DNA of 20,909 nucleotides, from positions 1-20,909 of IMG/VR virus record IMGVR_UViG_3300044611_001548; one strand, 5' to 3'. Positions 1-19,850 of the stretch are shown here, in pieces. Each line of letters starts with the position of its first letter. Position 1 is the stretch's first letter. Origin of the DNA: a virus. Under the pieces are notes generated by a model. The model searched no databases, was not told where the DNA came from, and saw only the letters and a list, made by a program, of their open reading frames with translations. The position numbers and the translations under genes were made by a program.

Positions 1-237
1 TTAGGTATTACCGAATACAGTACCGAACAGTACACCAAATACCTCGCTAATATTCGGCTGAAAGCGATCGGACTTGAGCCTTTATACAGGGAAGAAAAGT
101 ATAGCAAAAGTCCCTATACCCATCTGGAACGCTTCTCCGATACCAAAAAAGAAGGCCACACCAAAGCTAACTTTTTTGAAGCAACCGTTACCAGTTATGT
201 TATGTCTTCTGGCTTAACTGGATGGGATGAAATTTAA
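1..237 (+). CDS. 3' end of a rightward gene, product unknown
   Basis: Frame 1 is open from the first base to a TAA at 235-237, giving 78 residues of a C-terminus and ending in GLTGWDEI. The start lies outside the window. I do not recognise the family. The visible part is mixed alpha-helical, rich in Tyr, Lys and Glu, with no transmembrane segment and no catalytic motif. It is followed about 100 bases later by a strong intrinsic terminator, which supports it as a real transcribed gene. It reads opposite to most of the phage cluster and could be a host gene at a prophage edge or a rightward phage gene. The sequence alone cannot separate these. Confidence 0.6.
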   Translation, partial: LGITEYSTEQYTKYLANIRLKAIGLEPLYREEKYSKSPYTHLERFSDTKKEGHTKANFFEATVTSYVMSSGLTGWDEI

Positions 238-333
238 AATTTACGGGACAAAAATGACCCTATTTCTTACCATAAAGTGGCAATTATGTCAAATATTTTG
301 ACAACTTTTGACCAAACTTAGCAGCCTTTATAT

Positions 334-370
334 AAAAGGAAGAAATTAGCGCTAATTTCTTCCTTTTTTT
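334..370 (+). terminator. Palindromic rho-independent terminator
   Basis: Bases 334-367 form a perfect palindrome with two 17-base arms centred on AGCGCT (350/351), and the T-run continues to 370. It closes the rightward gene ending at 237. Because the left arm starts with AAAA, the hairpin is also flanked by Ts on the minus strand and could stop leftward transcription. Confidence 0.85.
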
Positions 371-535
371 GCTTAGGTAATCACTCTTTCTCGCCATTTA
401 CTTTACGGGGGGATTCTATGCAGATTGCTTCGATCAGTTTCATGGTAAAATTATCCTTTTTTTAGCAGGAGCGATCGTTACAGCATTGTGGCGATCTTTT
501 TTTTCTAGGAATCCTTAGTTATCTGTTAATAATAA
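371..535. other. Intergenic stretch without a supported gene
   Basis: No convincing coding region is seen. A short stem GATCG (473-477) pairs with CGATC (492-496) across a 14-base loop and is followed by eight Ts (497-504). This may be a second weak rightward terminator, but the stem is only 5 bp. A 20-codon leftward ORF beginning ATGAAACTGATC lies in this stretch with no other support. Confidence 0.4.
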
Positions 536-844
536 CTATTTATCCTCGAAAAGTTTAGAAATCAAAGTAATCCCCACCGCGCAAATAATAGGCAGGATTA
601 AGTTAGACGGTTCGTTGATTCTCGCTATTGGTTCACTTGTTTTTAGAGTGCGATAAAAATCTAATGGCGTTACGCTGATCTGCCCCAATTTTCCCAATTC
701 CTGTATGACACCATCGGGATGGGTAGGAAGCTTGTAGCAAACGCACTGAGTAGCATCTCGGTTAAAAAATTCGGTTAACGGTTGTTCGATTGGTTTCATG
801 GCTTTTTTGGGTAAAATGAGATTGTACTTGTCAAAAAAATTCAC
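536..844 (-). CDS. Small membrane-anchored protein, unknown function
   Basis: The protein has 102 residues when read from a GTG at 844; an in-frame ATG at 796 would give 86 residues. Neither start has a clear Shine-Dalgarno sequence. The N-terminal three quarters are soluble and contain two cysteines (CVCYKLP). Residues about 82-96 (LILPIICAVGITLI) form one hydrophobic segment near the C-terminus, followed by a short charged tail. This is the layout of a tail-anchored or single-pass membrane protein. It is the last leftward gene of the cluster and lies downstream of the HTH/coiled-coil gene across a hairpin. No family is recognised. A role in lysis or host takeover would be speculation. Confidence 0.55.
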   Translation of the reverse strand: MNFFDKYNLILPKKAMKPIEQPLTEFFNRDATQCVCYKLPTHPDGVIQELGKLGQISVTPLDFYRTLKTSEPIARINEPSNLILPIICAVGITLISKLFEDK

Positions 845-892
845 CTTTTGGAAGGATTTGATTGATAGTGTGACTTTGTGGAGTTAAGGTTT

Positions 893-920
893 AAAACGAG
901 CCGGTGAGGTTCGTTTTTTT
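893..920. terminator. Stem-loop, likely terminator of the coiled-coil gene
   Basis: Bases 893-902 pair with 908-917 (10 bp with one G-U pair) around the loop GGTGA, and Ts run to 920. The tract is best in the rightward sense. Leftward, the stem itself ends in TTTT. It sits 7 bases past the second, distal stop (927) of the coiled-coil reading frame, as expected if the gene once ended there. Confidence 0.55.
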
Positions 921-926
921 GTCCGA

Positions 927-1127
927 TTAGTAGCCCGATGCGGCAAGCTGTTGATCGAACGGGAGTTTTTGAATTAACTCTTGATTTTTTTGCTTTAGCC
1001 TTGCTTTTTCATCTTTTAATTTCTCGATTTCTTGCTTTTGGCCGGCGATGATGTTGTCAGTTAGAGTCGTAGACCTTCCTTTTTCGATCTGTCGTTTTAA
1101 GGCTCGGTTTTCCGCTTCTAATGCGCT
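927..1127 (-). pseudogene. In-frame continuation of the coiled-coil protein after a TAA
   Basis: Immediately after the TAA at 1128-1130 the same frame stays open for 66 codons to a TAA at 927-929. The translation begins SALEAENRALKRQIEK and ends LAASGY. It continues the heptad-like, Lys/Glu/Gln-rich coiled coil of the gene upstream, so it looks like the original C-terminus cut off by one nonsense change. It has no start codon with a ribosome-binding site of its own. The alternatives are stop-codon readthrough or a sequencing error. Confidence 0.7.
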
Positions 1128-1784
1128 TTACTTTTCTTGTAATTCCCGATGCTTTTTTTGTAGTATGGTGTACTTTTCTTGTAGTTCCCGATACTCGTTT
1201 TTTTGAAAATTGGGCTTAACAGGATCAGACTTAACAGAATCAGTAACAGAATCAGGCTTGACGGGATCGAAGTTGACAGAATCGGGTTTGGCCTCATCGG
1301 ATTTTTTCTTGGCACAATTAGCTATCTTCTTAATCTGTGCTGGTGTCGGGGTATTAGTCCCCGTCTCGGTCGTTATCTTTTGCCAGAGCGATCGAATTTC
1401 CGTGACCCGTCCAAGATTACAGGCGAGTCCCGTTTCCGATGCGTTATCGTGCGCTTCTTTTGTGGCAAAGAGAATCACGCGATCCCGATTTAATATTGGG
1501 GAAAAGGCCTTGTAAGAGTAAGTGTTAATTGGCACGCCCAAAATCATTTCGATCATTCGGGCTGAATTTTCTTCTTTGACGCGCCGGAACATATAGGGCG
1601 AAAGGTGAGCATCCGAGAATTCCTTAAATGTTTTGTAACCGATCGCTACATATCCCCCTTTCTCCTCGAATTCGTGCAAGATATGACGCAACTGATTATT
1701 GATTTGTCGAATGCCTTCAAGGCATTTGTTAATTTCCCCGACAAAGCTTTGAAAAATAGCTGATAATTCTTGAGTTTGTGTCAT
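1128..1784 (-). CDS. Predicted HTH-like DNA-binding protein with coiled-coil tail, truncated
   Basis: The ATG at 1784 is preceded by GGAG at 8 bases, so the start is firm. The 218 residues show an N-terminal helical segment, then a module around GYKTFKEFSDAHLSPYMFRR (residues about 49-68). This resembles the 'GYxSFxExxxxxxG-S..YRLI' helix-turn-helix region of KfrA/ParB-like and phage regulators. Next comes a basic linker with short DPVKPDSV-type repeats (about 167-190), then a coiled coil with a 14-residue repeat (RELQEKYTILQKKH). The frame stops at a TAA exactly where the repeat predicts Tyr (TAC). The gene lies downstream of the small gene ending at 1843. A regulatory or partition-like role is inferred from fold resemblance only. 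Confidence 0.65.
   Translation of the reverse strand: MTQTQELSAIFQSFVGEINKCLEGIRQINNQLRHILHEFEEKGGYVAIGYKTFKEFSDAHLSPYMFRRVKEENSARMIEMILGVPINTYSYKAFSPILNRDRVILFATKEAHDNASETGLACNLGRVTEIRSLWQKITTETGTNTPTPAQIKKIANCAKKKSDEAKPDSVNFDPVKPDSVTDSVKSDPVKPNFQKNEYRELQEKYTILQKKHRELQEK
1129..1192 (-). repeat. 42-bp-period repeat encoding coiled coil
   Basis: Bases 1129-1150 and 1171-1192 match at 21 of 22 positions, with a period of 42 bp (14 residues, two heptads). The copies encode RELQEK followed by TAC (Tyr) in the upstream unit and by TAA (stop) in the downstream unit. Confidence 0.75.
1212..1287 (-). repeat. Degenerate 15-bp repeats encoding D-S/P-V units
   Basis: Imperfect units of 12-15 bases encode successive PDSV, FDPV, PDSV, TDSV and SDPV peptides. 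They form a low-complexity hinge between the HTH-like domain and the coiled coil. Confidence 0.6.
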
Positions 1785-1842
1785 TCAATTGTCTCCAGAT
1801 TTTCGGTTTTTATGTTGGCAAATAGCGGACTATCCAGCTGAT

Positions 1843-2082
1843 TTAGAATAGTTCGGGTATATCTCTTTGGGGGTTCAATATAGCATCTCCCTTCTTTTGG
1901 AGTTTCGTATCCTGTAAACGATTGAGTCGTTCTTTTGCCATTAGCGATTCAATTCCAAATTCACTTGCGGCAATTAATAACTCAACGATGCCTTCTTTAA
2001 CTTCGTTTGGAAGCGAACAAAAACGACTCCAGCGACTATGATAGTTTCTTGCAATGATCGGACAGATATTGTTTTTGGACAT
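1843..2082 (-). CDS. Small basic protein of unknown function
   Basis: The 79-residue protein starts with ATG at 2082. It begins MSKNNICPIIARNYHSRW, then has a helical stretch (EVKEGIVELLIAASEFGIES) and a Lys/Arg-rich tail. No family is recognised. A good leftward promoter (-35 at 2131-2136, -10 at 2108-2113) would start transcription about 20 bases upstream, and the gene heads a short operon with the HTH-like gene 58 bases further on. No strong ribosome-binding site is seen. Its position beside a divergent promoter pair fits a small regulator, but nothing in the sequence shows DNA binding. Confidence 0.6.
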   Translation of the reverse strand: MSKNNICPIIARNYHSRWSRFCSLPNEVKEGIVELLIAASEFGIESLMAKERLNRLQDTKLQKKGDAILNPQRDIPELF

Positions 2083-2107
2083 AGGAGTATTTTGAATTCA
2101 TACTTAA

Positions 2108-2136
2108 AGTTTAAAGTAAACTTCTTGAATTGTCAA
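2108..2136 (-). promoter_or_regulatory. Sigma70-type leftward promoter
   Basis: Read leftwards, TTGACA (2131-2136), a 17-bp spacer and TAAACT (2108-2113) precede the ATG at 2082. The -35 is a perfect consensus match and the -10 matches 4 of 6. The -35 abuts that of the rightward promoter. Confidence 0.6.
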
Positions 2137-2153
2137 GCAAAATCTGTTACACT
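2125..2153 (+). promoter_or_regulatory. Extended -10 rightward promoter
   Basis: TTGAAT (2125-2130), 17 bp, then TGT-TACACT (TG at 2145-2146, -10 at 2148-2153) lie 26 bases before the ATG at 2180. The TG dinucleotide one base before the -10 is the extended -10 signature. Confidence 0.5.
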
Positions 2154-2179
2154 TTTATAAAAGCTTTGGGATAGACAAA

Positions 2180-2617
2180 ATGATCGACTCAACGATCGGA
2201 ATAGCGGGGCAGTTCCTGTCAAATCCGACAATAAAAGCGAATGCGTCTCTCGTATTTAGCGTCGCCACGGGTGCGCCCACGATGGCAGTAGATGAGGTAG
2301 GCAATCCGATCCTCGCTGCATCTGCTACGGCTACGGTCACGCTTGCCTGTTGGCTTCAACAGAAAAAACCTCCCTACGCCGATGTGCAGGAGGGAAGTTA
2401 TCTCGACTCCGAATATTTTGAGGGAAGGCTAGTAGACCCCAAAAACTATCCTTTCCCGGTTCCATCCACGGGGGATATTTGGGTTACGATTAACGGACGA
2501 TCTGGACTCGTTCGGCAGTTAAACGCTTTCGAGTCCCCAACGAGTCAACAATTAAACATCTCAGACAAGCTAGGACGGAGGATTAAGCTTTATGCCAGAT
2601 TTGACCAAGGCAATTAA
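2180..2617 (+). CDS. Phage protein, possible head-completion or neck protein
   Basis: The protein has 145 residues from the ATG at 2180. The first 60 residues are Ala/Val/Thr-rich with an apolar stretch (ILAASATATVTLACWL) that is only weakly membrane-like. The second half is beta-rich (GDIWVTINGRSGLVRQL, LGRRIKLYARFD), which reminds me of small head-tail adaptor barrels. No family match is certain. It is rightward while the surrounding head genes are leftward, and it overlaps the next gene by 26 bases, so the two are co-transcribed. A structural role is an inference from fold impression and context. Confidence 0.6.
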   Translation: MIDSTIGIAGQFLSNPTIKANASLVFSVATGAPTMAVDEVGNPILAASATATVTLACWLQQKKPPYADVQEGSYLDSEYFEGRLVDPKNYPFPVPSTGDIWVTINGRSGLVRQLNAFESPTSQQLNISDKLGRRIKLYARFDQGN

Positions 2618-2882
2618 ATCTCGATTTCCCTTCTCCGAAATCGAACAATGGAAAATTAGAATTTTCTTGCCAGACAACAAAAGCGATCAAGAAGACTTTC
2701 GGCACTACATTGATGTCAAAGCAGGAGACAAGCCGCTCGATAAAGCAGAATGGCTACTCGCTCGTTATAATGCCGTCCGTGCGGTCGGGATTCCTGTTTG
2801 CCCGTCTTTAGTTAAGCCGATCCCTGACTGGGATCAGATTGAAAATGAATTGAGATTCGTGGTTAGTCTAAATCCTTCCTAG
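2592..2882 (+). CDS. Small acidic phage protein, unknown function
   Basis: The protein has 96 residues. The ATG at 2592 is preceded by GGAGG at 10 bases, which fixes the start inside the previous gene. The sequence is soluble, with a DKAEWLLARYNAVRAVGIP helix and charged ends, and has no recognised motif. It is translationally linked to the upstream gene by the 26-base overlap. Its last 20 bases overlap, tail to tail, the end of the leftward holin-like gene, leaving no room for a terminator between them. Together with its partner it may be a connector pair, but this is a guess. Confidence 0.6.
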   Translation: MPDLTKAIKSRFPFSEIEQWKIRIFLPDNKSDQEDFRHYIDVKAGDKPLDKAEWLLARYNAVRAVGIPVCPSLVKPIPDWDQIENELRFVVSLNPS

Positions 2883-3078
2883 AATCACCCGCTAAAAACA
2901 ACCCCAAAGCAATTAGTGTTCCCTGCCAATTGTCTGAGGTAATGTAGTGAGCGAATAGCACAATCCCCGAAAATTCGGGGTGTTGGTGTGCGTAAGTAAT
3001 AAAATCACTTAAGACGTAAATAGCGGCAACTAACGAAGTTTTCCAATCTTTAAACAGCGATCGATTCAATGTCTTCAT
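2863..3078 (-). CDS. Holin-like small membrane protein
   Basis: The protein has 71 residues. There are two consecutive ATGs (3081 and 3078); AAGG upstream sits 7 bases before the second, so 3078 is chosen. The pattern DWKTSLVAAIYVLSDF, a middle Pro/Phe region, then TLIALGLFLAGDSRKD matches the common small phage membrane protein layout 'NWKTT...LLGLFxAxD', often called holin or holin-like. Two apolar helices (about residues 12-27 and 51-62) and a charged C-terminus are visible. It overlaps the end of rusA by about 29 bases. The endolysin lies 7.5 kb away, so pairing with it is inferred. Confidence 0.55.
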   Translation of the reverse strand: MKTLNRSLFKDWKTSLVAAIYVLSDFITYAHQHPEFSGIVLFAHYITSDNWQGTLIALGLFLAGDSRKDLD

Positions 3079-3457
3079 CATAAACCCTTCTAAAAACTGG
3101 ACTATCGCTAATTGTCAAAATTACTCTATCTTCGTCCCATTTAGTGAATGTGTGATCGTATCCTTGAATAATCTTTAGATTATCCTCGACAATTATTCCT
3201 GCGTGTTTTAGCCCGTCATTAATGTATTTCGCTGCAGCAGAAGTATTGTCAGGATCGCGATTAAAATTAACAAGTTTCCATTCGTAGTGTAGCCAAACTT
3301 GACCTAGAAATTGTGGAATTTTTTGCTTTTTTGCAAGCCCTGCAATATAAAGGGTCCACTCGTTTTTGACCCTTGCACTTTTAAATTTGTTGGTTCGCGC
3401 CTTCCGAATCTGATCGTTTAGCGTAGGAGGAAGGGGACAGGTAAATACAGCGATCAT
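3050..3457 (-). CDS. rusA: RusA-family Holliday junction resolvase
   Basis: The protein has 135 residues, close to the usual 120-140 of the family. It should cut four-way DNA junctions, here probably to resolve branched phage DNA during replication or before packaging. The hallmark is the acidic cluster: RDPDN near residue 70, then AAAKYINDGL, and GIIVEDN about 20 residues later, corresponding to the metal-binding aspartates of E. coli RusA. The N-terminus CPLPPTLNDQ is also typical. The ATG at 3457 overlaps the stop of the upstream gene by four bases (ATGA), which indicates coupled translation. The catalytic residues appear intact. Confidence 0.9.
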   Translation of the reverse strand: MIAVFTCPLPPTLNDQIRKARTNKFKSARVKNEWTLYIAGLAKKQKIPQFLGQVWLHYEWKLVNFNRDPDNTSAAAKYINDGLKHAGIIVEDNLKIIQGYDHTFTKWDEDRVILTISDSPVFRRVYDEDIESIAV

Positions 3458-4122
3458 AGGCTAACAGGTCTATACTTCCGAAAAACCAATAATAGATCGT
3501 TGGGAACCGTTCCAAGTTGTCCTGATCCGTAGCTGATTTTTAATTCTTCAAACGGCAGTTCTACGCTTGTAACACCCTTGAAGCTTCCCGTATTACATAC
3601 CCAGTCAAGAACCCGCCCAAAAGCGGCTTTTAGCTGTCTCACTTGTCGGGTATCTTGGGTAAAATCAATGCCAGCAGAATACTCTACGTCAGCCTCGGAA
3701 AACTCAGGAAATGGTTCACGAGTATTCCATGAGTGTCCGTATCCCCATGATCGCCCGTAAACGGTTGACAAATGAATCTGCCCGTCCACGTCGATCGTGT
3801 AGTCGTCAGGTGTTAGAACTTTCCAGTTATCGGGAGCGATCGCCCGATTAAATCCGTCTGTTACGTTTCCGAGGCGAACTTTGATGACCGGTTCAGGGTC
3901 TTCTGCAATCGGTGTACTTGGGGAGACATAGGTAAGCCTGAAGTTTTGGAATTTTAGGTTAACCCGCAGTTTTTCCCGATGTCGAACAATCTCTAGCGGG
4001 CGATCAGCCCCTCGATCTCCCTCGACAATAGTTTCGACAAAAGAAATTGCGCCTTCTAACGCTTCGTCCGTTAGGACAACGCCAGGCGCAAATAAAAAGA
4101 GGTCATCGGGAGTGAAAATCAT
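3454..4122 (-). CDS. Phage protein of unknown function, probably virion-associated
   Basis: The open frame reaches back to 4176, but the start is placed at the ATG at 4122 because it forms a four-base ATGA overlap with the stop of the zinc-ribbon gene, as rusA does at the other end. This gives 222 residues. The protein is beta-rich, with Asp-rich and Tyr/Trp-rich stretches (GRSWGYGHSWNTREPFPEFS) and no membrane segment. No family is recognised. Its place right after the major capsid and a small zinc-ribbon gene is where head-completion or neck proteins usually lie, so a connector role is plausible but unproven. Confidence 0.7.
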   Translation of the reverse strand: MIFTPDDLFLFAPGVVLTDEALEGAISFVETIVEGDRGADRPLEIVRHREKLRVNLKFQNFRLTYVSPSTPIAEDPEPVIKVRLGNVTDGFNRAIAPDNWKVLTPDDYTIDVDGQIHLSTVYGRSWGYGHSWNTREPFPEFSEADVEYSAGIDFTQDTRQVRQLKAAFGRVLDWVCNTGSFKGVTSVELPFEELKISYGSGQLGTVPNDLLLVFRKYRPVSL

Positions 4123-4343
4123 ACAATTTTGAGCATCGGACAATATTTCTGGTTTTCTTTTGTCCGTTGCGGGCAAAACGAGGCTCTTTCTTCGTCATTA
4201 TACTGCAATCGACCACCGCAGTCGCCGCAAAGCTTTATACCTTGACTTTTCAGATTTACAAGCTGGTACTCGCTTTCGGCGGGCGGAAAATCGGGCGGGG
4301 GGATTTCGCCCGTTATTTCGGTTTTTGTTTTTGTTTCAGCCAT
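4119..4343 (-). CDS. Small zinc-ribbon protein
   Basis: The 74-residue protein has an acidic, Pro-rich N-terminus (TGEIPPPDFPPAESEYQL) and a C-terminal cysteine module: CGDCGG, then FCPQ and YCP, four cysteines spaced like a zinc ribbon. The start ATG at 4343 lies 13 bases after the capsid stop, with AGAG upstream. The stop overlaps the next ATG (ATGA). Small zinc-ribbon proteins between capsid and connector genes are common in phages. Here it could be a structural cement or a regulator; the sequence does not decide. Confidence 0.7.
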   Translation of the reverse strand: MAETKTKTEITGEIPPPDFPPAESEYQLVNLKSQGIKLCGDCGGRLQYNDEERASFCPQRTKENQKYCPMLKIV

Positions 4344-4356
4344 AGTTTTCTCTTGA

Positions 4357-6258
4357 TTAGCTTAATCCAGAAAGTGCGTTATCGGTAGTACGGAATTTGG
4401 CCACCCGTAACTGTTGGCTGGCAACTCCCGAACCAGTGGGATCAACGTCGAGGGCATCAACTCCTTCCCACGAAAGCCATGTCAAGCGAGACTCACGATC
4501 AAAGTTGGTAACGGAATCGGTGCGAACCTCTACAGGCATTGCGATTCCCCGTCCTACCGCCCCGTGTCCAAAGAAATAAGAGTCACGGAATAACGCGGTG
4601 GTAGAGGGAGTGCGAACGGTAACGTTACTCACCCCGTCTGCCCCAGCGTTGCCTACACCAAAAGCGTTAGATTCAAAAACGTGAACACCTTCGACAACTC
4701 CCATATAGCCGTTAACCCGTGGCTCGGATTCGTCGGGAACGTAAGCCGGAAGCATGGCATTGAGAAAATCGAGAAGGTTGGCTTGGGTTGGAGCCTCCCA
4801 ATCATCATCTAAATCTTCTCTTAATTGTTTCCAAGCGGTAGGATTTAGGACTGCCATAAAGTTCCCGTCTGGCAACGGCTCCCACGGGCTACTGGATGAG
4901 TGAGCGCGGTGTCTCATCTCTCGAAGGAATTGTTGATTCATGCGGCCGTCGCCGTTCTGTAGTGCAGTTGCCGCCGTGTTAATCGTGTTGCCCTGGTTGT
5001 ACCAGATCACCGAGGTCAAATCGTAACGAGAACGGATTAGGCGATCCTCAAATTGAGCGTAGTCATAGCCAAATTTTTGATTGAGTTCCGCCGCCAATTC
5101 GTAAGCCGAAAAATACTCAACGAAGCTAACAATTCGGATCGGGTTAATTTGTGTAGAGGCACTTTCTTTACCACGTCCATACTCACGAATTTCCACATCG
5201 ACTTTGGAAGTAGACATGGAATCGCTACGGGTCGTAATTGAACTGTAAGCGTTACCCGCCGATAGTTCGTAGTCAGCAAGGGAAGGTGAGGTGGAAAGGT
5301 AGTTAAATCTTCCAATTTGAATTACGTTTCCTCGCGATTTTGCAAAATCGTATCGCACCAATGGCATCATGTGAAACACGAAGCCGGGGCGATGAGTGAC
5401 ACGCATAATTGCCGAAAGTGTAGGCAAGAAACCACCGGGAAGATCGGAGATAATCGTGTTAGCTACACTTTCCCCTGGATCGATCATCTGAATGTCGGTT
5501 CCTCTAAACAGCCCCGCTTTTTTGCCCCACGAATCTAGGTCGTTTAAAACGTGTCGATAGTTTTCTTTGACATAGCGATCAAGTTCGGTTTTGTCAAAGT
5601 CTAAAACTCGCTCTTTAGCCCCTGTAAATTTTACGGCCTTTGGAAGTGAGTCGATGTGGTGTTGTATTTCCCGAAAAGTACCGGGTAACTTATCGTTGTA
5701 GCCAATCGCAATATTCGTGTTAAAGTTTAACGTTTTGAATTTCGGGGCATTGTTTTGTGTTTTCACTTCGACCGTTTCTACCTTTTTTGCGGGCTGACTA
5801 GAACCGTGGAGTTTTCCGAGGTCATTAAAGTTGTTGATGACTCGTTCCGACTCGGCCGCTTTAGCTTCGAGTGCGGCAATTTTTTTGTTTGCCTGTTTGA
5901 TAGCTTCGGAGGCTTCATCAAAGGAGGATTTAATTTCGTTTTTTTCGACTTCTGCTTGTTGCTTTTGCGCTTCTAATGCAGATTGTTTTTCGGCTTCAGC
6001 CGCCGCCTTGACTTCTGCAATTGCAGAACTTACAGCACTCGCAATCAGTGACTCGATCGCTTTTAAGTCGAGCGGGGCGGGGGGAGTTTCGGTTTCAGTA
6101 TTCTTGACGGGGACAACCGGGGTAGCGGTTTTGATTTCGCCGCGTTCTACGGCTTTAACCTTCATCTCAAATAATTCTTTTTCGTCAACGGACTGCCCGT
6201 CGGAATCTTTGACGACTACGGGAGTAATCCGTTTGATTTCTTGTAGTGTTTTAGACAT
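4357..6258 (-). CDS. Major capsid protein with N-terminal coiled-coil domain
   Basis: The protein has 633 residues, large for a capsid subunit. Residues 1-60 are charged and flexible, about 64-142 form a long Ala/Glu/Lys coiled coil, and from about 175 onward a globular part carries capsid-like features. These include a TSPSLADYELSAGNAYSSIT region followed by a helix containing DYAQFEDRLIRSRYDLTSV, a GNFMAVLNPTAWKQLR segment and an AMPVEVRTDSV segment, as in N4 gp56-type/HK97-fold coat proteins. The N-terminal coiled coil probably acts as a built-in scaffold (delta domain) that the neighbouring protease may remove. The family assignment is by pattern, not alignment. A TATAAT lies upstream. 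No clear Shine-Dalgarno is seen. Confidence 0.8.
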   Translation of the reverse strand: MSKTLQEIKRITPVVVKDSDGQSVDEKELFEMKVKAVERGEIKTATPVVPVKNTETETPPAPLDLKAIESLIASAVSSAIAEVKAAAEAEKQSALEAQKQQAEVEKNEIKSSFDEASEAIKQANKKIAALEAKAAESERVINNFNDLGKLHGSSQPAKKVETVEVKTQNNAPKFKTLNFNTNIAIGYNDKLPGTFREIQHHIDSLPKAVKFTGAKERVLDFDKTELDRYVKENYRHVLNDLDSWGKKAGLFRGTDIQMIDPGESVANTIISDLPGGFLPTLSAIMRVTHRPGFVFHMMPLVRYDFAKSRGNVIQIGRFNYLSTSPSLADYELSAGNAYSSITTRSDSMSTSKVDVEIREYGRGKESASTQINPIRIVSFVEYFSAYELAAELNQKFGYDYAQFEDRLIRSRYDLTSVIWYNQGNTINTAATALQNGDGRMNQQFLREMRHRAHSSSSPWEPLPDGNFMAVLNPTAWKQLREDLDDDWEAPTQANLLDFLNAMLPAYVPDESEPRVNGYMGVVEGVHVFESNAFGVGNAGADGVSNVTVRTPSTTALFRDSYFFGHGAVGRGIAMPVEVRTDSVTNFDRESRLTWLSWEGVDALDVDPTGSGVASQQLRVAKFRTTDNALSGLS

Positions 6259-6285
6259 AGTATTTTTTCACGATAGCTAAGAAAA

Positions 6286-6291
6286 ATTATA
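6286..6291 (-). promoter_or_regulatory. Perfect -10 box upstream of the capsid gene
   Basis: Read leftwards, TATAAT stands 27 bases before the capsid ATG at 6258, in the 48-bp gap after the protease gene. No good -35 is found at 16-18 bp. A capsid-only transcript would fit the need for high expression. Confidence 0.4.
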
Positions 6292-6306
6292 CTTGAAGTT
6301 TCGCTA

Positions 6307-7020
6307 TTACGCCATAACAAAAGCGTTCAGGTTTTTATCGAGAATTCTGGCCTGTCGGCAATTTCCCGCAAATACAAAAGAGCATTCTAGGGAGTCTATC
6401 TTGCCAGTGCGGCGATAGTAAGGCGTTAACAGTTCCTCTTCTACCCAACCTGCCATATACGGGGGGTAATGCTCGCAGTGTTTGTCCTCGTAAGGAGTAT
6501 TGCAGATGGGGCAGTAGGATTTTCCATAAAAGTTTGCGCCGATCGAAACGTTTGCTCGCCGGCCGTAGAGAACATCCGAGGCTCCAGGGTGGGATTGCTC
6601 GACAAAAGCAAATACCAAAACCTGGTGATAGCCGTCTCGCTCGATAATAGCCCTATCTTCACTCGGATTCGGAGATTTAGAAAGAAGTTTCCGCATCCCT
6701 TCCTCGCTTACGCGGGGTAACGAGTAAAGTAGGGCATCGTAAACCATCCCAAAAGTTTTTTCGCATCGATCCCATTCGTGATCGATCATTAGGGGACAGC
6801 CAGGATAGCTCGCTACCATCGTCGTCAAAGCTGTTTCATCCCAAGCCATAAGCGAGCCGTGAATTAGGTTATTGCTGGCCATCATCGGGAATCGTAAAAG
6901 CTCTGATGCTTCCCACGGATCGGCTCCCATCGGACAATAGGCGTTAATTGCCGTCAGTTCCTCGGCTGTCGGCTCGCGCGTTTCTAGTAATTTTTCAAAA
7001 TCCGAGTGAGTTAGTAGCAT
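6307..7020 (-). CDS. Putative prohead protease with zinc-finger-like insert
   Basis: The ATG at 7020 (237 residues) is preferred over an upstream TTG at 7044, because AGGA lies upstream and MLLTHSDFEKLL is a normal N-terminus. Phage head-maturation proteases show a His in a 'DHxx' strand and a Ser in 'VSIG'. Here these are H81 (LMIDHEW) and S159 (ANVSIG). Between them lies a charged helical region. After the Ser comes a CxxC-x8-CxH cluster (C170, C173, C182, H184), as in many phage protease-like proteins with a small metal site. The position between minor head and capsid genes fits. It may cleave the capsid coiled coil. The catalytic assignment is inferred. Confidence 0.6.
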   Translation of the reverse strand: MLLTHSDFEKLLETREPTAEELTAINAYCPMGADPWEASELLRFPMMASNNLIHGSLMAWDETALTTMVASYPGCPLMIDHEWDRCEKTFGMVYDALLYSLPRVSEEGMRKLLSKSPNPSEDRAIIERDGYHQVLVFAFVEQSHPGASDVLYGRRANVSIGANFYGKSYCPICNTPYEDKHCEHYPPYMAGWVEEELLTPYYRRTGKIDSLECSFVFAGNCRQARILDKNLNAFVMA

Positions 7021-7167
7021 GGCTATAAAAAATCCTAATAACAATTCTAGCTGTAAAACAGAAATTTATGGTAAGATAAAAGCGATAAATACAAATATAA
7101 ATCAAAAATTTGTTCCAGTTGCTCTAGCATCAGTTGCGAGGTTGTCTCCTGCCTCGTTTTTTCTTGT

Positions 7168-7812
7168 CTATAGCCAACCCCAGCTTGAGCCAGCAAGTAG
7201 GTTTGTTGTCGGGCGCGTGCGAGAATTGGAAAATTCAAAATAACATCCACAGTTGTCCCGACAAGAACAGCGATCCGTAGGACGGGGGAGGGTTCCAATT
7301 GGTTGCCATCCCGCCGCTTCGTACACGATGCACTCGCGGCAGGATTCGGTTTTTGTTCTAATTCGCCGCTCCCATCGGTTGACCAAAGCGTTTCCCCGGC
7401 GATTCCCCTCCTCGAAAGCTTCACGGGCTTTGGCAATGTAACGTTTTGAGCGGTTTAAGATTTGTTTTTCTGTTTGAGTTCCAAGAATAATATCCCGGCT
7501 AAACTTTCGGAGTCTAGCGTACTGTGAGCGAAGGATTGCCCCGATTCTGCCGTAATCGGATTGGGTCATATCTGGCTTTCCGATTCGGTATAGCTGGATC
7601 GTTAAAATTTTGATTTCCTCGCTCATTCGAGATTCCCATTCTCGAACGGTGATTCGCTCGGAAAGCATATCCCGTGTAAGCCGATTAGTCCGATTAATCC
7701 TTTCGTTGATCGCTGTAGCGACAAGTTCACGAACGCGAGCGGCCGAGATAAACTTCTTAGTCCGGTTATCGTGATAGCGTCGGGTTTGGGGATTAAACGA
7801 AAAATCGGTCAT
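7168..7812 (-). CDS. MuF/SPP1 gp7-like minor head protein
   Basis: The 214-residue protein starts at the ATG at 7812. The N-terminal two thirds are charged helices (RNRLTRDMLSER-type composition). The C-terminal part has the hallmark of phage head-morphogenesis proteins: two Cys in SCREC, then GWQPIGTLPRPTDRC, then SCRDNCGCYFEF, a cysteine-rich motif usually read as a metal site. Such proteins sit inside the procapsid or at the portal and may be ejected with DNA. It lies between portal and protease genes, as is normal. It starts 6 bases after a 50-codon membrane gene. Downstream, 7021-7167 is an AT-rich gap with no gene. Confidence 0.75.
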   Translation of the reverse strand: MTDFSFNPQTRRYHDNRTKKFISAARVRELVATAINERINRTNRLTRDMLSERITVREWESRMSEEIKILTIQLYRIGKPDMTQSDYGRIGAILRSQYARLRKFSRDIILGTQTEKQILNRSKRYIAKAREAFEEGNRRGNALVNRWERRIRTKTESCRECIVYEAAGWQPIGTLPRPTDRCSCRDNCGCYFEFSNSRTRPTTNLLAGSSWGWL

Positions 7813-7818
7813 CGTAAG

Positions 7819-7971
7819 CTAAAGAAACGTAGGAAACTCAATCCAGACATCGACTGCCATTTTCGCAAACAGAAGTGCAAAAAACCATGCGGCGGCAAGG
7901 CAAGCCAGTACAAACCCGACACCTATGCCCGTTAAAACAATTGAAGATAATATTTTAAGGAGTAGCAACAT
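7819..7971 (-). CDS. 50-residue single-pass membrane protein
   Basis: This short gene has an ideal AGGAGG Shine-Dalgarno 7 bases before the ATG at 7971 and ends with TAG at 7819. It encodes 50 residues, beginning MLLLLKILSSIVLTG, with almost continuous apolar character from residue 8 to 36 and a short hydrophilic end (VDVWIEFPTFL). It sits between the portal and minor head genes, six bases before the latter, so it belongs to the head operon. Membrane peptides here could help lysis or DNA entry. No family is recognised. Confidence 0.7.
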   Translation of the reverse strand: MLLLLKILSSIVLTGIGVGFVLACLAAAWFFALLFAKMAVDVWIEFPTFL

Positions 7972-8008
7972 CGATTATCCTCCTAGTTAACACTGGAAAA
8001 ATCGGCCA

Positions 8009-8176
8009 TCAATTTTCTATTTCTGGCTCAAGAAAGTTTTTAAAATCAGGATCGGGAGGCTTTTTTTTCCAGTCCGAGATCGCTAGATTTATGTCCTCAG
8101 AATTTACGGTTGCTTTTGACAATAAGCGTGTTACTGGATCGAGAGCTTTTTCTTTTGGATTAAATTTACTTCGCAT
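8009..8176 (-). CDS. 55-residue hydrophilic protein, unknown function
   Basis: The ATG at 8176 opens a 55-residue frame, MRSKFNPKEKALDPVTRL..., ending DFKNFLEPEIEN. It is charged, with a basic N-terminus and an acidic, Pro-rich C-terminus, and has no membrane segment. It starts 1-2 bases after the stop of a smaller upstream ORF and is 37 bases from the membrane gene, consistent with tight packing in the head operon. Codon use and composition resemble the neighbours. The function is not visible. Confidence 0.6.
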   Translation of the reverse strand: MRSKFNPKEKALDPVTRLLSKATVNSEDINLAISDWKKKPPDPDFKNFLEPEIEN

Positions 8177-8179
8177 GAT

Positions 8180-8275
8180 TCACTCAATACAAAGGTCTTC
8201 GGGATGGACGGGGCGATGAAAAGCATATCCTTGAAAATATTCTAATCCTAAACTGCTGCCTGATAATACGGGCAA
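8180..8275 (-). CDS. Possible 31-residue ORF after the portal gene (TTG start)
   Basis: A TTG at 8275 has GGGAG close upstream. It opens 31 residues that include LGLEYFQGYAFHRPVHPEDL and stop just before the ATG at 8176. The frame is the same as that of the portal and is open right back to the portal's TGA, so this could be a short separate gene, a readthrough extension of the portal, or chance. The peptide composition looks protein-like. No family is known. Confidence 0.3.
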   Translation of the reverse strand: MPVLSGSSLGLEYFQGYAFHRPVHPEDLCIE

Positions 8276-8296
8276 ACGTCTCCCTCGTATAATGCG

Positions 8297-9592
8297 TCAA
8301 GTAGTTCTTCTAGGCTTCTTTTCACTGTTTTCCTCTTGTGATTTGTTATTACTTTTTAGCGTACTTTCTTCTGCGGCGGTGTCTTCGGTTTCGTCGCCCG
8401 TCATGCCATCAATCGATTCTGACCATTTTGGCCAGAGAATACGATACTTGTTTTGGGCGTTTTCAAAATACCAATCATAGCTTTTTCTTAGCACTAGCTC
8501 CGTGTCGATCACCTGTTTAATCGCACCTGTCAGCAACTGACACCACCCGTAGCGCATCCGGGAGTAACGGCGGTCAGGCGATCTTGATAACTCTTTGGTT
8601 CCCCCCTTTGATTCGAGTCCGGGGAAAAAATATGAAGGAAAGCCTGGAATAATTAGCTTGTACCGACACTGTAAAACATTGTCAATTAATCCTGAAAGAT
8701 CGGGATTAAGGTTTGCCATTTTGCGAATGTCGTATTCTTTGCTAGTTAAAACAAAATCGGTGATTGCCCCCGATTGTCGCCGTAGCTGTATTTCTTGTTC
8801 AAATTTTCGCTTGTTTTCCTCGCTCATGCTAGGAAAAATAAACAAGGTTGGATCGCTTGCAATGTCATCGGCTTTTTTTTGGAGGTTGTCGGTTGCTCGT
8901 TTTACGTCTGCCCACGCATCAAGAGATGTACACCAGAGGGAACGGCCATAAAGATAATTGGGAGAATGCCGGAGATGAATCAGTTTTTCTGGCTCAAAAA
9001 AATAATCGGGATCGGAGTGCGATAAATATTTTCTCTGCTCGAATCCTAGCAGTTCGCCTTGATCGCTCTCTTTTCGGAACATCTCGAATGTAGGCAGATA
9101 TAAGCTTTTGCTTACTCCAAAATCCTTGCTTTTGTTTGGGGATAGTCCCTCTCGTTCGATACCTAGCTCGATGAAGCAATCGCCTTTCCCTAATGTCCAC
9201 CGCAGAGCTTTTTTAAGCGTGTCACCGCCAATCACATAGGAATCTAGTGATTGTTTCCTTTGACGTAATTCTTCGGCAATTGCGAAAACTTCGGCGTTTA
9301 CTGGCGTTTCTTCGTCATCGAGCGTATCGGCAATTGACCATCCCTGATCGTCCCCGTCGTTGCTGGCGAAAGTATCGTCAGCGGCCATTTCGAGGGAATG
9401 AAAAACTTCATAGCACCATTGGTTAAGCTCGATTAGCTCGCGGGAAATCCGTGGGTCTCGAATCGGATTTTCCTCGATTTCTAAGTCGTATCGCCGCGTC
9501 ATCGATAAAATTCCCGATGTTGCAAGCGATCGCTGTGACCCTCTCAGCGATCCGTCTTGTTTTTTGTCCTTTTTTTTCTTTCCTTTGGCCAT
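8297..9592 (-). CDS. Portal protein
   Basis: The protein has 431 residues, in the usual 400-550 range. The portal forms the twelve-subunit DNA gate at one vertex and is the first gene of the head block. Supporting features are a basic Lys-rich N-terminus, RYDLEIEENPIRDPRI early on, and IGGDTLKKALRWTLGKGDCF (typical portal wing strand and helix). A HLRHSPNYLYGRSLWCTSLD segment is followed by ADVKRATDNLQKKADDIASD, the stem helices. The C-terminus is acidic then basic and looks disordered. The ATG at 9592 has no strong ribosome-binding site, but a promoter-like sequence ends about 20 bases upstream. The stop TGA is followed by an in-frame open stretch. Confidence 0.85.
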   Translation of the reverse strand: MAKGKKKKDKKQDGSLRGSQRSLATSGILSMTRRYDLEIEENPIRDPRISRELIELNQWCYEVFHSLEMAADDTFASNDGDDQGWSIADTLDDEETPVNAEVFAIAEELRQRKQSLDSYVIGGDTLKKALRWTLGKGDCFIELGIEREGLSPNKSKDFGVSKSLYLPTFEMFRKESDQGELLGFEQRKYLSHSDPDYFFEPEKLIHLRHSPNYLYGRSLWCTSLDAWADVKRATDNLQKKADDIASDPTLFIFPSMSEENKRKFEQEIQLRRQSGAITDFVLTSKEYDIRKMANLNPDLSGLIDNVLQCRYKLIIPGFPSYFFPGLESKGGTKELSRSPDRRYSRMRYGWCQLLTGAIKQVIDTELVLRKSYDWYFENAQNKYRILWPKWSESIDGMTGDETEDTAAEESTLKSNNKSQEENSEKKPRRTT

Positions 9593-9614
9593 CGGGAGTT
9601 ACAATTCTTTCCCT

Positions 9615-9643
9615 ATTCTAAAGGAAAAAGACGACTTTGTTAG
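9615..9643 (-). promoter_or_regulatory. Candidate promoter for the head operon
   Basis: Leftward: CTAACA (9638-9643), 17 bp, TAGAAT (9615-9620), about 22 bases before the portal ATG. A weak stem (AAAGAC 9646-9651 with GTCTTT 9627-9632) followed by Ts overlaps it and could end the upstream transcript. The two readings compete, so confidence is limited. Confidence 0.4.
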
Positions 9644-9676
9644 CTGTCTTTCTTGAAACATCACGAAAGGAAAGTT

Positions 9677-10045
9677 TTAAAATTCTTGCCACTCTATCAC
9701 TCTCTCTGGCAGATCACCGGACTCTTGCCAGATAATACTAGGCTTATCGTCGGGATCGTCATCGTCGAGAATTTCGTCGGGATCACCTTCGTTGCTAGGA
9801 ACTTCGTATAGTCTCCCAAAACATTCTACAATATTACTAGAATAGCTGGGACGGTTTCTGACAGCAATCTCGACGGGAACAATTTCTGAGGGGAGTAACC
9901 AAAGGTTTTCTGGTTCGGGACACTGAAAATCTACTGATAAGTATGGCCCATCAGGAATAATTTCCACGATCCGACCTGCTCCGCGATCAATATATTCTTT
10001 AAGAATATCTGAATTAATTTTGACAAATTCTCCTACACTAAACAT
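9677..10045 (-). CDS. Small acidic protein with a barrel-like N-terminus
   Basis: There are two ATGs at 10048 and 10045; AGAGGAG lies 4 and 7 bases before them, so the second is chosen, giving 122 residues. The N-terminal half (FSVGEFVKIN, GRIVEIIPDGPYLSVDFQ, LWLLPSEIVPVEI) has the strand-turn pattern of an SH3/KOW-like small barrel. The C-terminal half is strongly acidic (GDPDEILDDDDPDDKP). It overlaps the end of the upstream gene by 8 bases and is the last gene before the head block. No family is recognised. A nucleic-acid or protein-docking role is a guess from the barrel impression. Confidence 0.6.
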   Translation of the reverse strand: MFSVGEFVKINSDILKEYIDRGAGRIVEIIPDGPYLSVDFQCPEPENLWLLPSEIVPVEIAVRNRPSYSSNIVECFGRLYEVPSNEGDPDEILDDDDPDDKPSIIWQESGDLPERVIEWQEF

Positions 10046-10316
10046 CATCTTGCTCCTCTGGTTGATTTAAAATTGCTTTTTCTCTCTCGATAGATTCGGC
10101 GGTGAAAAATAGCTCATCGACAAGCCGATCCATTAAAATTTCGGCTACAGAACGGGAGATTCGTAGTTTTGCCAACGCCTCACTAATTTCAACGACATAT
10201 TGATCGTTTTGAGCAAAACACTCATTTTTTGTAATCGAAACAATTAAACAGCAATTTACAAAAACCTTGTTGCCGTCAATATCTTCGATGATTAATGGTC
10301 TGTATCCTTTGTTCAT
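10038..10316 (-). CDS. Small protein of unknown function
   Basis: The 92-residue protein starts with ATG at 10316. It opens with a beta-like segment (RPLIIEDIDGNKVFVNCCLI) and ends in a long helical, acidic part (EILMDRLVDELFFTAESIEREK). Its stop overlaps the start of the acidic barrel-like gene, so the two are made together. No catalytic motif, membrane segment or known family is seen. It sits downstream of a 47-residue coiled-coil gene that has a strong promoter, and the three probably share a transcript. Confidence 0.6.
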   Translation of the reverse strand: MNKGYRPLIIEDIDGNKVFVNCCLIVSITKNECFAQNDQYVVEISEALAKLRISRSVAEILMDRLVDELFFTAESIEREKAILNQPEEQDDV

Positions 10317-10378
10317 GGCTTTACATTGTAATAGTTTGGTTAATTGAATAGACTCGCTATCGGTGGATTTGTGAATAG

Positions 10379-10522
10379 CTACTCCTTTTTTGAGTCTGCA
10401 AAGGAGTGTAAGGATTCCGATATTTCCTTTAAATATCGGTTCATTTCTTTTTGTTCTGCAACTAATTCCTGAAGGAGATTAATTAGTTGATTGAGTTCAG
10501 ATAATAATTCTCTTTCGTTCAT
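10379..10522 (-). CDS. 47-residue coiled-coil peptide
   Basis: The gene is short but well supported: a near-consensus promoter lies 33 bases upstream and GGAG precedes the ATG at 10522. The product, MNERELLSELNQLINLLQEL..., ends with SFADSKKE and TAG. Leu recurs every 3-4 residues through most of its length, so an amphipathic helix that oligomerises is likely. Such small coiled coils may be anti-repressors, scaffold-like or lysis-timing peptides. None can be chosen here. It is the first gene of a small cluster just downstream of the endolysin. Confidence 0.65.
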   Translation of the reverse strand: MNERELLSELNQLINLLQELVAEQKEMNRYLKEISESLHSFADSKKE

Positions 10523-10554
10523 ACGAAACAACTCCAAAAAACTTGATTAATTAA

Positions 10555-10583
10555 ATCATACACAAGCTTTCTGGAATTGTCAA
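10555..10583 (-). promoter_or_regulatory. Near-consensus sigma70 promoter
   Basis: Leftward: TTGACA (10578-10583), a 17-bp spacer, TATGAT (10555-10560). It should start about 25 bases before the ATG at 10522. It shares the 11-bp GAATTGTCAAG (plus-strand reading, 10574-10584) with the promoter at 2127-2137. It is the best promoter in the window. Confidence 0.75.
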
Positions 10584-10602
10584 GTAGATTGGGAGAATAA
10601 AT

Positions 10603-11355
10603 TTAGATAAATCGTAAAGCTCTCTGGTAGTACCGTTCTCTGTCTGCAAGCCCGTTGTATCCCCCGTTCACTCGTCGGGTAACTTGCCGAACAGTTGCGC
10701 CCCGATCAATTAAAGCATTCATATTGTTGTTGTGCCACCAAAATCCACTAGGTAAAAATAGATAATTTTTGGAGACATATTGCCAGCCTTCCATAACTCT
10801 TTGATCGCCGATAAAGTTGGCAAAAGCTTGATAGTTAGCACGTCCAGTCATTTGCAAAGCGTCCACGCCTTTAAACCGCGGTCCATCGCCTGGAAAAACA
10901 TTCCCCAAATCCTGCCGCCCCTCGTAAGCGGCTCCTGATGCCAGTTCAACCATCCATCTTAAACCGCCGCTTTCGTGGGCAATTTGAGCAAGAAAATGAC
11001 GAACACGGGGGATGGTGGTTATATCGAATCGTTTGAGACAGCGATCAAGGGACTGGAATTGATGATCGGTTATCGCTCTCTCAAAAATCGCTTCGCACTG
11101 GTCTTTTCTGACGACAGGAGACTCTATTCCCGTTCCATCAAAATGCCCTTGAAACGCGTACCAGTTATAGCGTCCATCTATCGGGGGATGGACTTCTATT
11201 AGGTAGTGATTTCCTTTCCGCTTTAGCCATTTATAAATTACTTTTTGTCCTTTGGCAATCGGAACAGATTTAAAATCTGGGGGTAGATTCGGGCTAGAGG
11301 AGTCGAGCGGGTGGGTTTTAAGGAGTGTGTTTTGAGTGGCGAGTAGGCTATTCAT
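10603..11355 (-). CDS. GH19-type endolysin
   Basis: The protein has 250 residues. It hydrolyses peptidoglycan glycan strands, for release of progeny. Residues about 25-75 form a small basic beta-domain (KGQKVIYKWLKRKGNHYLIE, then GRYNWYAFQGHFDG) that may bind the wall. From about 84 to the end comes a glycoside hydrolase 19 fold: HFLAQIAHESGG with catalytic Glu128, then VELASGAAYEGR with Glu137 as likely second acid, DLGNVFPGDG, and ALQMTGRANY. No signal peptide is seen, so export needs a holin. It starts two bases after the stop of the membrane/coiled-coil gene, as in a lysis cassette. The usual 'GRG' before the Gln strand reads GVD here. Confidence 0.85.
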   Translation of the reverse strand: MNSLLATQNTLLKTHPLDSSSPNLPPDFKSVPIAKGQKVIYKWLKRKGNHYLIEVHPPIDGRYNWYAFQGHFDGTGIESPVVRKDQCEAIFERAITDHQFQSLDRCLKRFDITTIPRVRHFLAQIAHESGGLRWMVELASGAAYEGRQDLGNVFPGDGPRFKGVDALQMTGRANYQAFANFIGDQRVMEGWQYVSKNYLFLPSGFWWHNNNMNALIDRGATVRQVTRRVNGGYNGLADRERYYQRALRFI

Positions 11356-11356
11356 T

Positions 11357-11848
11357 TTAGGCTTCGATAGTTTCTGTTAAGGATTTAAAACAGGTAAATA
11401 TTTTTATTTGCTGTTGTCGAATTTCCATTAAATGACAATCTTGGGATTCTTGCCGTGATCGTAGTTCGCTAAACTGATGCTCATAACTAGGCAAAACCAG
11501 ATCGGCTACCTGTTGTTTCGTTTCGACAACCGCCATTCGTTCAGTTAATCCCGTGATTTTTTCGCTCAAGTTTTTGACCGAATTATCGAGATTCTTCACA
11601 CTTTCATCGAGTTTTGACATCATTTTTTCAAGCCTACTGGATTGGGTATCGCTAAACTCTGTAGCCTTTTCAAGGTTAATACGATCCAATTCTTCTGCCT
11701 GTGATTTAGATTTGATCAACAAATACGATATGATGATCGAGCTTGTTGCCAGCACAACACTAAATATAACGCCCCAGTCTTGCAGTGTCCAATCGGACGG
11801 GCGATTGATAACTGTTGTGGGCGAAACAAGGATAGAGGTAGTTTTCAT
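11357..11848 (-). CDS. Membrane protein with coiled coil, lysis-linked
   Basis: The protein has 163 residues. One transmembrane helix spans about 24-46 (WGVIFSVVLATSSIIISYLL), preceded by a short polar N-terminus. After it comes a long coiled coil (about 50-150) with LDESVKNLDNSVKNLSEKI repeats and a Thr/Glu-rich end. The stop and the endolysin ATG are separated by one base (TAAAATG), so translation is coupled. A membrane anchor with a coiled coil beside an endolysin fits a hemolysin XhlA-like, holin-accessory or spanin-like protein. A second small TM protein elsewhere resembles a holin, so the division of labour is open. Confidence 0.65.
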   Translation of the reverse strand: MKTTSILVSPTTVINRPSDWTLQDWGVIFSVVLATSSIIISYLLIKSKSQAEELDRINLEKATEFSDTQSSRLEKMMSKLDESVKNLDNSVKNLSEKITGLTERMAVVETKQQVADLVLPSYEHQFSELRSRQESQDCHLMEIRQQQIKIFTCFKSLTETIEA

Positions 11849-11930
11849 TTTTCGTAGTCAATACTCTATCCGTAATTTTACTCACAATAGTCAACTACAA
11901 CGGAATTAGCTTGAGCTTTTTAAAACTATA

Positions 11931-14255
11931 TTAAGCCCGTGGCGACGAAAATAGGAAGTCATTTCCTGGCATAAAATTCCCAAACGTAGGAACAGCCAAA
12001 AAATTATCCGTGTTTTCCCAGAGATTTTTGCACGTCTTGTAGGTACGATCGCACCCTGCGGTGAGCCGTACTGAATCGTGAGCGGCGATCGAGTCGGCCG
12101 CCCCAGTAAATAACTCGATCCGTGTAGTTCCTGAAAATGGAAAAAATTGAGATGTGTAAATTGCGTAAGTAGCGTTTTTATTCTTGCCGTCAAGAAAAGT
12201 CAAGGTTCCCCACGCAAGGTTCTCAAAAATTCCATAAACCTCGACAATACGGCGATCTGCAATACTTCCCACAGAAGTTGTATAAGTTGGGACGGTTTTT
12301 TGGCATCCAGTCCCGTCACCGTTGTTTTGCCCAAAAAACCATCCACACAGGGGCGTTACCCGCTCGTCCCGTGATTGCCGAAGTTTGATACTGGCCTCGG
12401 TAAGATTTTCGAGGGTGTAGGTTTCGCCACTTTTCGAGTTGATTTCCCCGACAAAGCCAATTTGCACCCGCTCGTCGGGCAAATCTAGGAGCGAGTCGGG
12501 GAGGTTTCGCCAGTCTATAATTGCCGTGGTAATCTTAGCTTCTTGAAAGCGGGGCGAAAGAATTAGCGGCTCGGTTAGGTCGTCAATAAATGCCCCTCGG
12601 AATTCTTCGTTATTGGAAGTCAATCCGATAGAGCGATCAAGCGCGGTCGGGTCAAGGGCGCAGCGAGAACGATAGGTCACTCCATCGATCCTAATATCTC
12701 GCGAGTGATTGGTATATCCAAGTCTTTCCCCGTCCGCAAGCTCGATCAGGATAGCTCTACAGATCGTCAGGACGGGATCGGATAAATCTCCCCCCGTCCC
12801 CCCATCCCCTCGAATTCCGTCCGTAAAACGTCGGATTTGAAGCTCTCCTAGGGAATAGACGCGCTGATTAGTTTGATTGGAATAATTGAGGGATTTTGAG
12901 TTAAATCGAGAGATTACGTTTCCCCCGTTCAGGAGATCGGGGAATTGAAAGGTTGCACCGGTTCCCTTGTGGGAAAGCCAGAGGCAAATCAAATACTCGA
13001 GCTCGTTTTGACGAAGGTTTCTCCGTTGTTGCAGGGAATTGGTATCAACCGCTTTTCGCCGGCGTGAGAACCGCTTTCTTTCCCCGCTAGAGAGTTCGGC
13101 AATATTGGTTTGAAATTCGGGCGATAGTGTTGAGGCTTTGTAGAGATTGAGCTTGAATTTGTGATTTGTGCCGTCTTCAAATACATCAGTAGGAACGATC
13201 GCCGGCTCAATCCTCGACTCGCGCAGAACGAGCGAGGGAATCTCGAACACGCCCTTTACCTTGACTGGGTTTCCATCGACAATTTTGACCAGCGGTCGAT
13301 AGTCAAGGCGATCGCTCTCAAACGAGCAAGGAACTTTAAAACTCCCCTCCCATGTCAAAATTCCTACGGCGGGCGGGTTGTCGAAAACGATTCGGTCAGG
13401 AGCGACAACGTAGCCCGTCAGTTCGTTGTCGTCTCGGTAAATTTTTAGTCCAGTATCGGGGAACAAGATCGGGCGGTAGTGAATGTTTCCACCGCAAGAG
13501 TATGCTTTGGTCAAAACAAACTCGGTCAGGATTCCGTCTGCACTGGGATAAAGAGCGCCCTGTGATGTGGCTCCGTTGCCGAGGTCTATCTGGTTCCTTG
13601 TAGCCCAATCATCTGATAAATCCCGATAAAGAAAATCCCCTTTCGCTCCCTGTCTTCCTTCGTGAAAGTCGAGAAGACTGTCAAGGTCGTCGGTTCGCAG
13701 GGCAGACCTAGAAAGATTAAAAATTCGGATCGGGTCAGCCCATTCCACAATTCTTTGTTCGGCATCGCCAGTGTTGTCGTACTCGTAATTTTGAAACTGG
13801 ATTTCTACGCTAAAATCCTTGTCTGGTAAAATCGGGAATTCGGGAAGATTTACGGGATAGGGATTTGCAGGAAAATGGGCGGGATCGGTGATACGAACTA
13901 TATGGGTAATTTCAACGTTATAGCCGAGCCTACTGCTCCCAGTAATCGAGCCTTGATAAAAATAATTAGCGGATGTCCGATAAATTTCACCGCCACCACC
14001 AACAATGCCAAACCCAATATTTCGAGTATTATAGTCAGCCTCAGAAACATAGCCAATTCCTTGTATTTGTCCATACTTGGTGATAATTTTCCACAACTGC
14101 CCGGATGTTCCTAATCCCCCATCAAAAGTTACTATATCTAGTTTTGGGTTTTTATCCCAAGAAATAGGGTTTGATGTGCGCCAAAAGCCAGGGCTGTCTC
14201 CTAAGCCGTTTAAAGGTTTTTCTCGACAAGTTCCAAATAGATGGTAATAAAGCAT
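11931..14255 (-). CDS. Fused distal-tail and hub protein (DUF2460-like + DUF2163-like)
   Basis: The protein has 774 residues. In many siphophages and in Rhodobacter gene transfer agent these are two genes. Residues 1-130 are Gly-rich and unrecognised. About 170-320 matches the DUF2460 pattern: IRIFNLSRSALRTDDLDSLL, GRQGAKGDFLYRDLSDDW, and PCSFESDRLDYRP, a distal-tail protein. About 345-480 has a second copy-like segment (ELEYLICLWLSHKGTGATFQ). About 494-770 matches DUF2163: SRDIRIDGVTYRS, then PLCGWFFG and AGCDRTYKTC with C637, C651, C735 and C742, and the end FMPGNDFLF. These four Cys could hold an Fe-S cluster as in lambda gpL and related hubs. The ATG at 14255 has a weak ribosome-binding site. 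Confidence 0.8.
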   Translation of the reverse strand: MLYYHLFGTCREKPLNGLGDSPGFWRTSNPISWDKNPKLDIVTFDGGLGTSGQLWKIITKYGQIQGIGYVSEADYNTRNIGFGIVGGGGEIYRTSANYFYQGSITGSSRLGYNVEITHIVRITDPAHFPANPYPVNLPEFPILPDKDFSVEIQFQNYEYDNTGDAEQRIVEWADPIRIFNLSRSALRTDDLDSLLDFHEGRQGAKGDFLYRDLSDDWATRNQIDLGNGATSQGALYPSADGILTEFVLTKAYSCGGNIHYRPILFPDTGLKIYRDDNELTGYVVAPDRIVFDNPPAVGILTWEGSFKVPCSFESDRLDYRPLVKIVDGNPVKVKGVFEIPSLVLRESRIEPAIVPTDVFEDGTNHKFKLNLYKASTLSPEFQTNIAELSSGERKRFSRRRKAVDTNSLQQRRNLRQNELEYLICLWLSHKGTGATFQFPDLLNGGNVISRFNSKSLNYSNQTNQRVYSLGELQIRRFTDGIRGDGGTGGDLSDPVLTICRAILIELADGERLGYTNHSRDIRIDGVTYRSRCALDPTALDRSIGLTSNNEEFRGAFIDDLTEPLILSPRFQEAKITTAIIDWRNLPDSLLDLPDERVQIGFVGEINSKSGETYTLENLTEASIKLRQSRDERVTPLCGWFFGQNNGDGTGCQKTVPTYTTSVGSIADRRIVEVYGIFENLAWGTLTFLDGKNKNATYAIYTSQFFPFSGTTRIELFTGAADSIAAHDSVRLTAGCDRTYKTCKNLWENTDNFLAVPTFGNFMPGNDFLFSSPRA

Positions 14256-14283
14256 TAAAATGATACTTGATCAGTGTAAATAG

Positions 14284-14433: not shown

Positions 14434-14549
14434 TTTAGGTTGAGTTTTGTGTCTATACTATACTATCATTAAAACCCGCTCACTACCCATAACCCCTACA
14501 CAAATCCAAAAGGGATTATTACTACTATCAAGGGCGATTTTTGTTGCTA

Positions 14550-19845: not shown

Positions 19846-19850
19846 TTTGC

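Follow-up and report, generated by a model that had tools for sequence, protein, structure and literature searches.

Ordinary nonsense alleles occur in virus populations. Phages with reassigned stop codons have also been described, including phages using genetic code 15, in which TAG is read as Gln (PMC9523058). Among the literature titles found, none bears on the gene considered here, which is interrupted by an in-frame TAA in a 20,909-base virus record from IMG/VR. The whole of this stretch is referred to below as the window, and it is probably a fragment because near relatives in IMG/VR reach 64.5 kb.

The closest named phages are met through a different gene of the window. The open reading frame (ORF) at 8297-9592 (minus strand) has 34.5% identity over 83% of the query to proteins of Cylindrospermopsis phage Cr-LKS4, where the annotation is portal protein, and Cylindrospermopsis raciborskii virus RM-2018a, the only named phages that it matched. 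A RusA-like resolvase, recognized in a PHROG search, and a protein with a baseplate-hub domain are also encoded in the window and, taken with the portal-like match, these suggest that the source virus is a tailed phage, probably with a cyanobacterial host.

An Interrupted Gene and Its Open Frame

The features of the locus are as follows, in window positions.

1843-2082, minus strand: small ORF of 79 residues just upstream of the gene, possibly on the same transcript
1128-1784, minus strand: the gene's present open part (218 residues), made up of a mostly helical N-terminal region, a linker and some three coiled-coil heptads (helix layout from low-confidence models)
1116-1199, minus strand: two 42-base units (14 residues, two heptads each) sharing 32 of 42 bases; both distant relatives are 14 residues shorter here
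1128-1130, minus strand: codon 219, where TAA stops the frame prematurely; all four near-identical records read TAC (Tyr) here, and both distant relatives have a Tyr preceding the corresponding heptad
927-1127, minus strand: rest of the frame, 66 codons and a TAA stop, encoding what is left of the coiled coil and then a conserved tail with LPFxxQLxA
893-917, minus strand: weak hairpin lacking a T run, 7+2 pairs, nine bases past the second stop

The frame opens with ATG at 1784, meets TAA at 1130-1128, continues for 66 sense codons and closes at a second TAA at 929-927, so that the intact frame is 285 residues long, the same length as in four near-identical records. The preliminary description, made from the letters of this DNA, had proposed that one nonsense change turned TAC into TAA in a gene originally some 285 residues long, with a frame running 66 codons beyond the stop; the continuing frame is there, and TAC is found in all four near-identical records, each of which encodes 285 residues. 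By itself the open tail frame is mild evidence, with 439 of 20,000 composition shuffles open over 66 codons, and it is the homologues that provide strong evidence. Relatives conserve the tail in this frame, and all five alternative frames of the 198 bases downstream of the TAA are interrupted by a stop; a separate gene or another frame downstream was therefore rejected. The protein end predicted from this record is thus not the usual one of the family, and a gene call on the record would consequently be 67 residues too short. Upstream, a promoter-like site lies at 2136-2108 (minus strand); 500-3100 holds four sites of this kind, and chance alone would give 4.1.

A hairpin terminator had also been proposed to follow the frame. 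A hairpin is present at 893-917, but it is weak (-8 kcal/mol, z -1.47, with 14 of 200 shuffles folding at least as well), has no T run after it and is not among the terminators listed by a terminator scan, and the case for a terminator here is weak. Further along, a 34-base perfect palindrome with a T run at its end (334-367) is kept in all four near records and is likely a terminator.

The stop lies within a repeat, as had been noticed earlier. The units at 1116-1157 and 1158-1199 have 32 of 42 bases in common, and in a scan of lags 15-69 the next best was 27/42 at lag 21, with all others at 20/42 or below. The upstream copy does carry the tyrosine codon TAC, at 1172-1170, at the place equivalent to the stop. 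In the intact relatives the tyrosine at this place belongs to a heptad series formed by Y198, L201, Y205, L208, H212, L215, Y219, L222, N226, L229, and I233.

Relatives of the Gene

Six relatives were found when IMG/VR was scanned with the 218-residue protein, and a second scan with an alignment returned the same six contigs; both scans may leave out records very near the window, and further copies carrying either base may hence have gone uncounted. Four relatives are near-identical to the window: G001 (98.4% identity over 13,500 bases), G002 (one difference, at 1128, in 6,779 bases), G003 (five differences in 14,410 bases), and G004 (21 differences in 4,483 bases). The two distant relatives, G005 and G006, encode 251 and 246 residues, with best-segment identities of 64 and 59%, respectively, and lack 14 coil residues, exactly two heptads, as well as 23 linker residues. 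A looser pattern scan yielded no further member, its nine contig pieces being the six known relatives and three (L062-L064) that match in a different protein and were left out of the relative count. Scans of genome contigs found no relatives of the gene, a phage collection gave no match by DNA (window 1-8000) or to the 218-residue protein, and a plasmid search by protein gave no useful match. The first 160 residues of a relative had one match in the phage collection, at E 0.3, to a protein annotated as GTP cyclohydrolase.

In the homologue comparison proposed in the preliminary description, a tyrosine before the xxLxAEN heptad and the full tail are found in six of six relatives, G005 and G006 included, and a stop at the place of codon 219 in none of the six. 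As none of them ends here, the TAA is neither the normal end of the family nor a conserved readthrough site.

A Private Difference

Positions were compared over ungapped stretches only (window 1-13500 for G001, 145-6923 for G002, 105-14514 for G003, and 1-4483 for G004). Over 145-4483, where all four near records are aligned, 1128 is the sole column at which the window differs from all of them; this count leaves out the G001 match beyond 13500, which continues to 14268 and in further pieces. Across its 858 bases the gene in G001, G002, and G003 is identical to that of the window except at 1128, and the flanks show no indels against G002 and G003. A second private difference, synonymous, is found at 12999 in the comparison with G001 and G003 only, and the record therefore has at least one other private difference. 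We consider it very likely that the TAA is a nonsense difference private to this record, in a gene that is intact apart from it, and that it has no regulatory role.

The window and G001 are not evenly alike along their length, with two differences over 1-4000, up to 72 per kb at 5001-6000, and four and two per kb at 9-11 kb; window 4001-8000 resembles a recombination block. Window 14269-16466 is strongly diverged or replaced in G001, where only one match of about 220 bases (82% identity) was found, and this stretch overlaps with ORF 14550-17030, a large one and possibly a tail or fiber gene. An intein with homing-endonuclease domains (Hom_end_hint, Hom_end, and LAGLIDADG_3) is located at 18667-19689 on the minus strand, inside ORF 16996-19980. 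It interrupts the P-loop of a phage helicase between PCGYGK and TVLF, where G006 has an uninterrupted PCSYGKTILF and G001 and G005 match across the insert. The same helicase ORF has a DnaJ-like domain at residues 572-613, between its ResIII and Helicase_C domains, with a score of 27.7 bits, just below the curated cut-off of 27.8.

Tail Conservation and Protein Identity

Comparison of the coding sequences indicates that the tail is conserved as protein in the family. Over 62 aligned tail codons, G005 and G006 are separated by 27 synonymous and 21 nonsynonymous changes (per site, pS 0.69 and pN 0.14), and the invariant residues include LPF..QL.A; when either is set against the window group, synonymous sites are at or close to saturation. 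Between G004 and the window group the tail shows three nonsynonymous and no synonymous changes, and short-term constraint on the tail may therefore be loose.

The 218-residue part had no match at 0.01 in either Pfam or PHROG. With four full-length relatives, the best Pfam match was to Wtap (E 2.1e-5 in one member), which in the first member scores 18.6 bits against a cut-off of 35; for this first member the best 25 of 37 families all score under their cut-offs, and their matches fall within residues 165-279, mainly in the coiled coil. In PHROG, phrog_77 (SbcC-like) matches all four full-length relatives (best E 3.3e-5), the first member covering only positions 649-795 of 967. The Wtap and phrog_77 matches probably reflect coiled-coil similarity. 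A sequence search of the PDB gave no match better than E 0.16. Two AlphaFold models are poor (mean pLDDT 53.5 and 54.5); they make the N-terminal region mostly helical, and the full-length model adds the linker and two long C-terminal helices. We infer that the product may be an oligomeric phage protein whose coil sets its assembly state. That the N-terminal region might bind DNA is a guess to which the searches lent no support.

Origin of the Stop Codon

The chances that this is a real fresh nonsense mutation, and not a consensus error, are about even. The event would be a C-to-A substitution on the coding strand, private to one virus lineage, that stops the 285-residue protein after residue 218; what would be lost is the remainder of the leucine/tyrosine-heptad coiled coil together with the conserved C-terminal tail. 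The truncated product may thereby lose, or have weakened, its oligomerization and whatever contacts the tail makes, and the gene would therefore be impaired, yet dispensable to the extent that the phage could still be sampled.

An error in the consensus or assembly of the contig, with the sampled phage carrying an intact gene, is a serious contender that we rate a little short of an even chance. The TAA is present in one record only among those compared, while near-identical records over 6.8 and 14.4 kb are without it. In addition, nonsense changes make up 4.6% of possible coding substitutions (2,613 of 56,304, counted over 21 ORFs picked by hand from the 66 of the window), which places the chance of at least one nonsense change among the two private differences at about 9% without selection. 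Under purifying selection nonsense should be rarer still among natural differences, and this leans toward error. Error-like differences also exist in another contig of the set: against G003 the window shows two adjacent differences at 119-120, 16-17 bases from the end of the G003 contig, which are probably contig-end errors in G003. However, base 1128 is more than 1.1 kb from the contig end, and against G002 and G003 there are neither indels nor clustered differences around it. Mis-assembly of the repeat was considered as a source of the TAA and rejected; the other copy carries TAC, so confusion between the copies would yield TAC instead of TAA. In the window, the 17-base word that surrounds the stop is unique. 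Mutation or error, the change is in either case an ordinary one.

It is improbable, although conceivable, that the 218-residue form is an allele under selection, one example being a coiled-coil protein that assembles differently once shortened. Coil length does differ within the family by exactly two heptads, and changes in coil length are thus tolerated in some form. On the other hand, not one of the six relatives has the short form, the distant relatives share a conserved tail, and past the stop the frame is identical to that of G001-G003 and gives no hint of decay or adaptation. Were such an allele real, loss of the tail and part of the coil would alter phage behavior and short and long alleles would coexist in nature, which we likewise regard as improbable. 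An allele shown to be both real and recurrent would represent a natural loss-of-tail variant of an uncharacterized phage coiled-coil protein.

Programmed readthrough or a reassigned TAA, giving both long and short forms, is highly improbable: the frame past the stop is open and identical to that of the intact G001-G003, but no relative has a stop here, and TAA terminates 14 of the 21 ORFs used, being the commonest stop among them, and is therefore not reassigned. Neither the window nor seven loci, all of them fragments of larger genomes, yielded a tRNA gene. Restart after the stop was also considered and rejected, with no ATG, GTG, TTG or CTG in frame and ATT at codon 271 as the only candidate found. 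Of the three explanations offered at the outset, fresh truncation and assembly error thus both stand, and regulated readthrough is disfavored, no relative found having a stop at this place.

Comparison With Known Systems

An in-frame stop inside a phage gene is what this locus shares with the code-15 phages (PMC9523058). It differs from them in having a single TAA, which is the commonest stop, with no tRNA found in the window and relatives that carry a sense codon. The likeness to Cr-LKS4 and RM-2018a lies in the portal-type protein of ORF 8297-9592, whereas the phage collection holds no counterpart of the 218-residue protein or, at the DNA level, of window 1-8000. Compared with the ordinary nonsense alleles of virus populations, the change seen here is not separable from a consensus error, but it resembles them in being a single-base substitution that only one lineage carries, in a frame that is intact apart from it.
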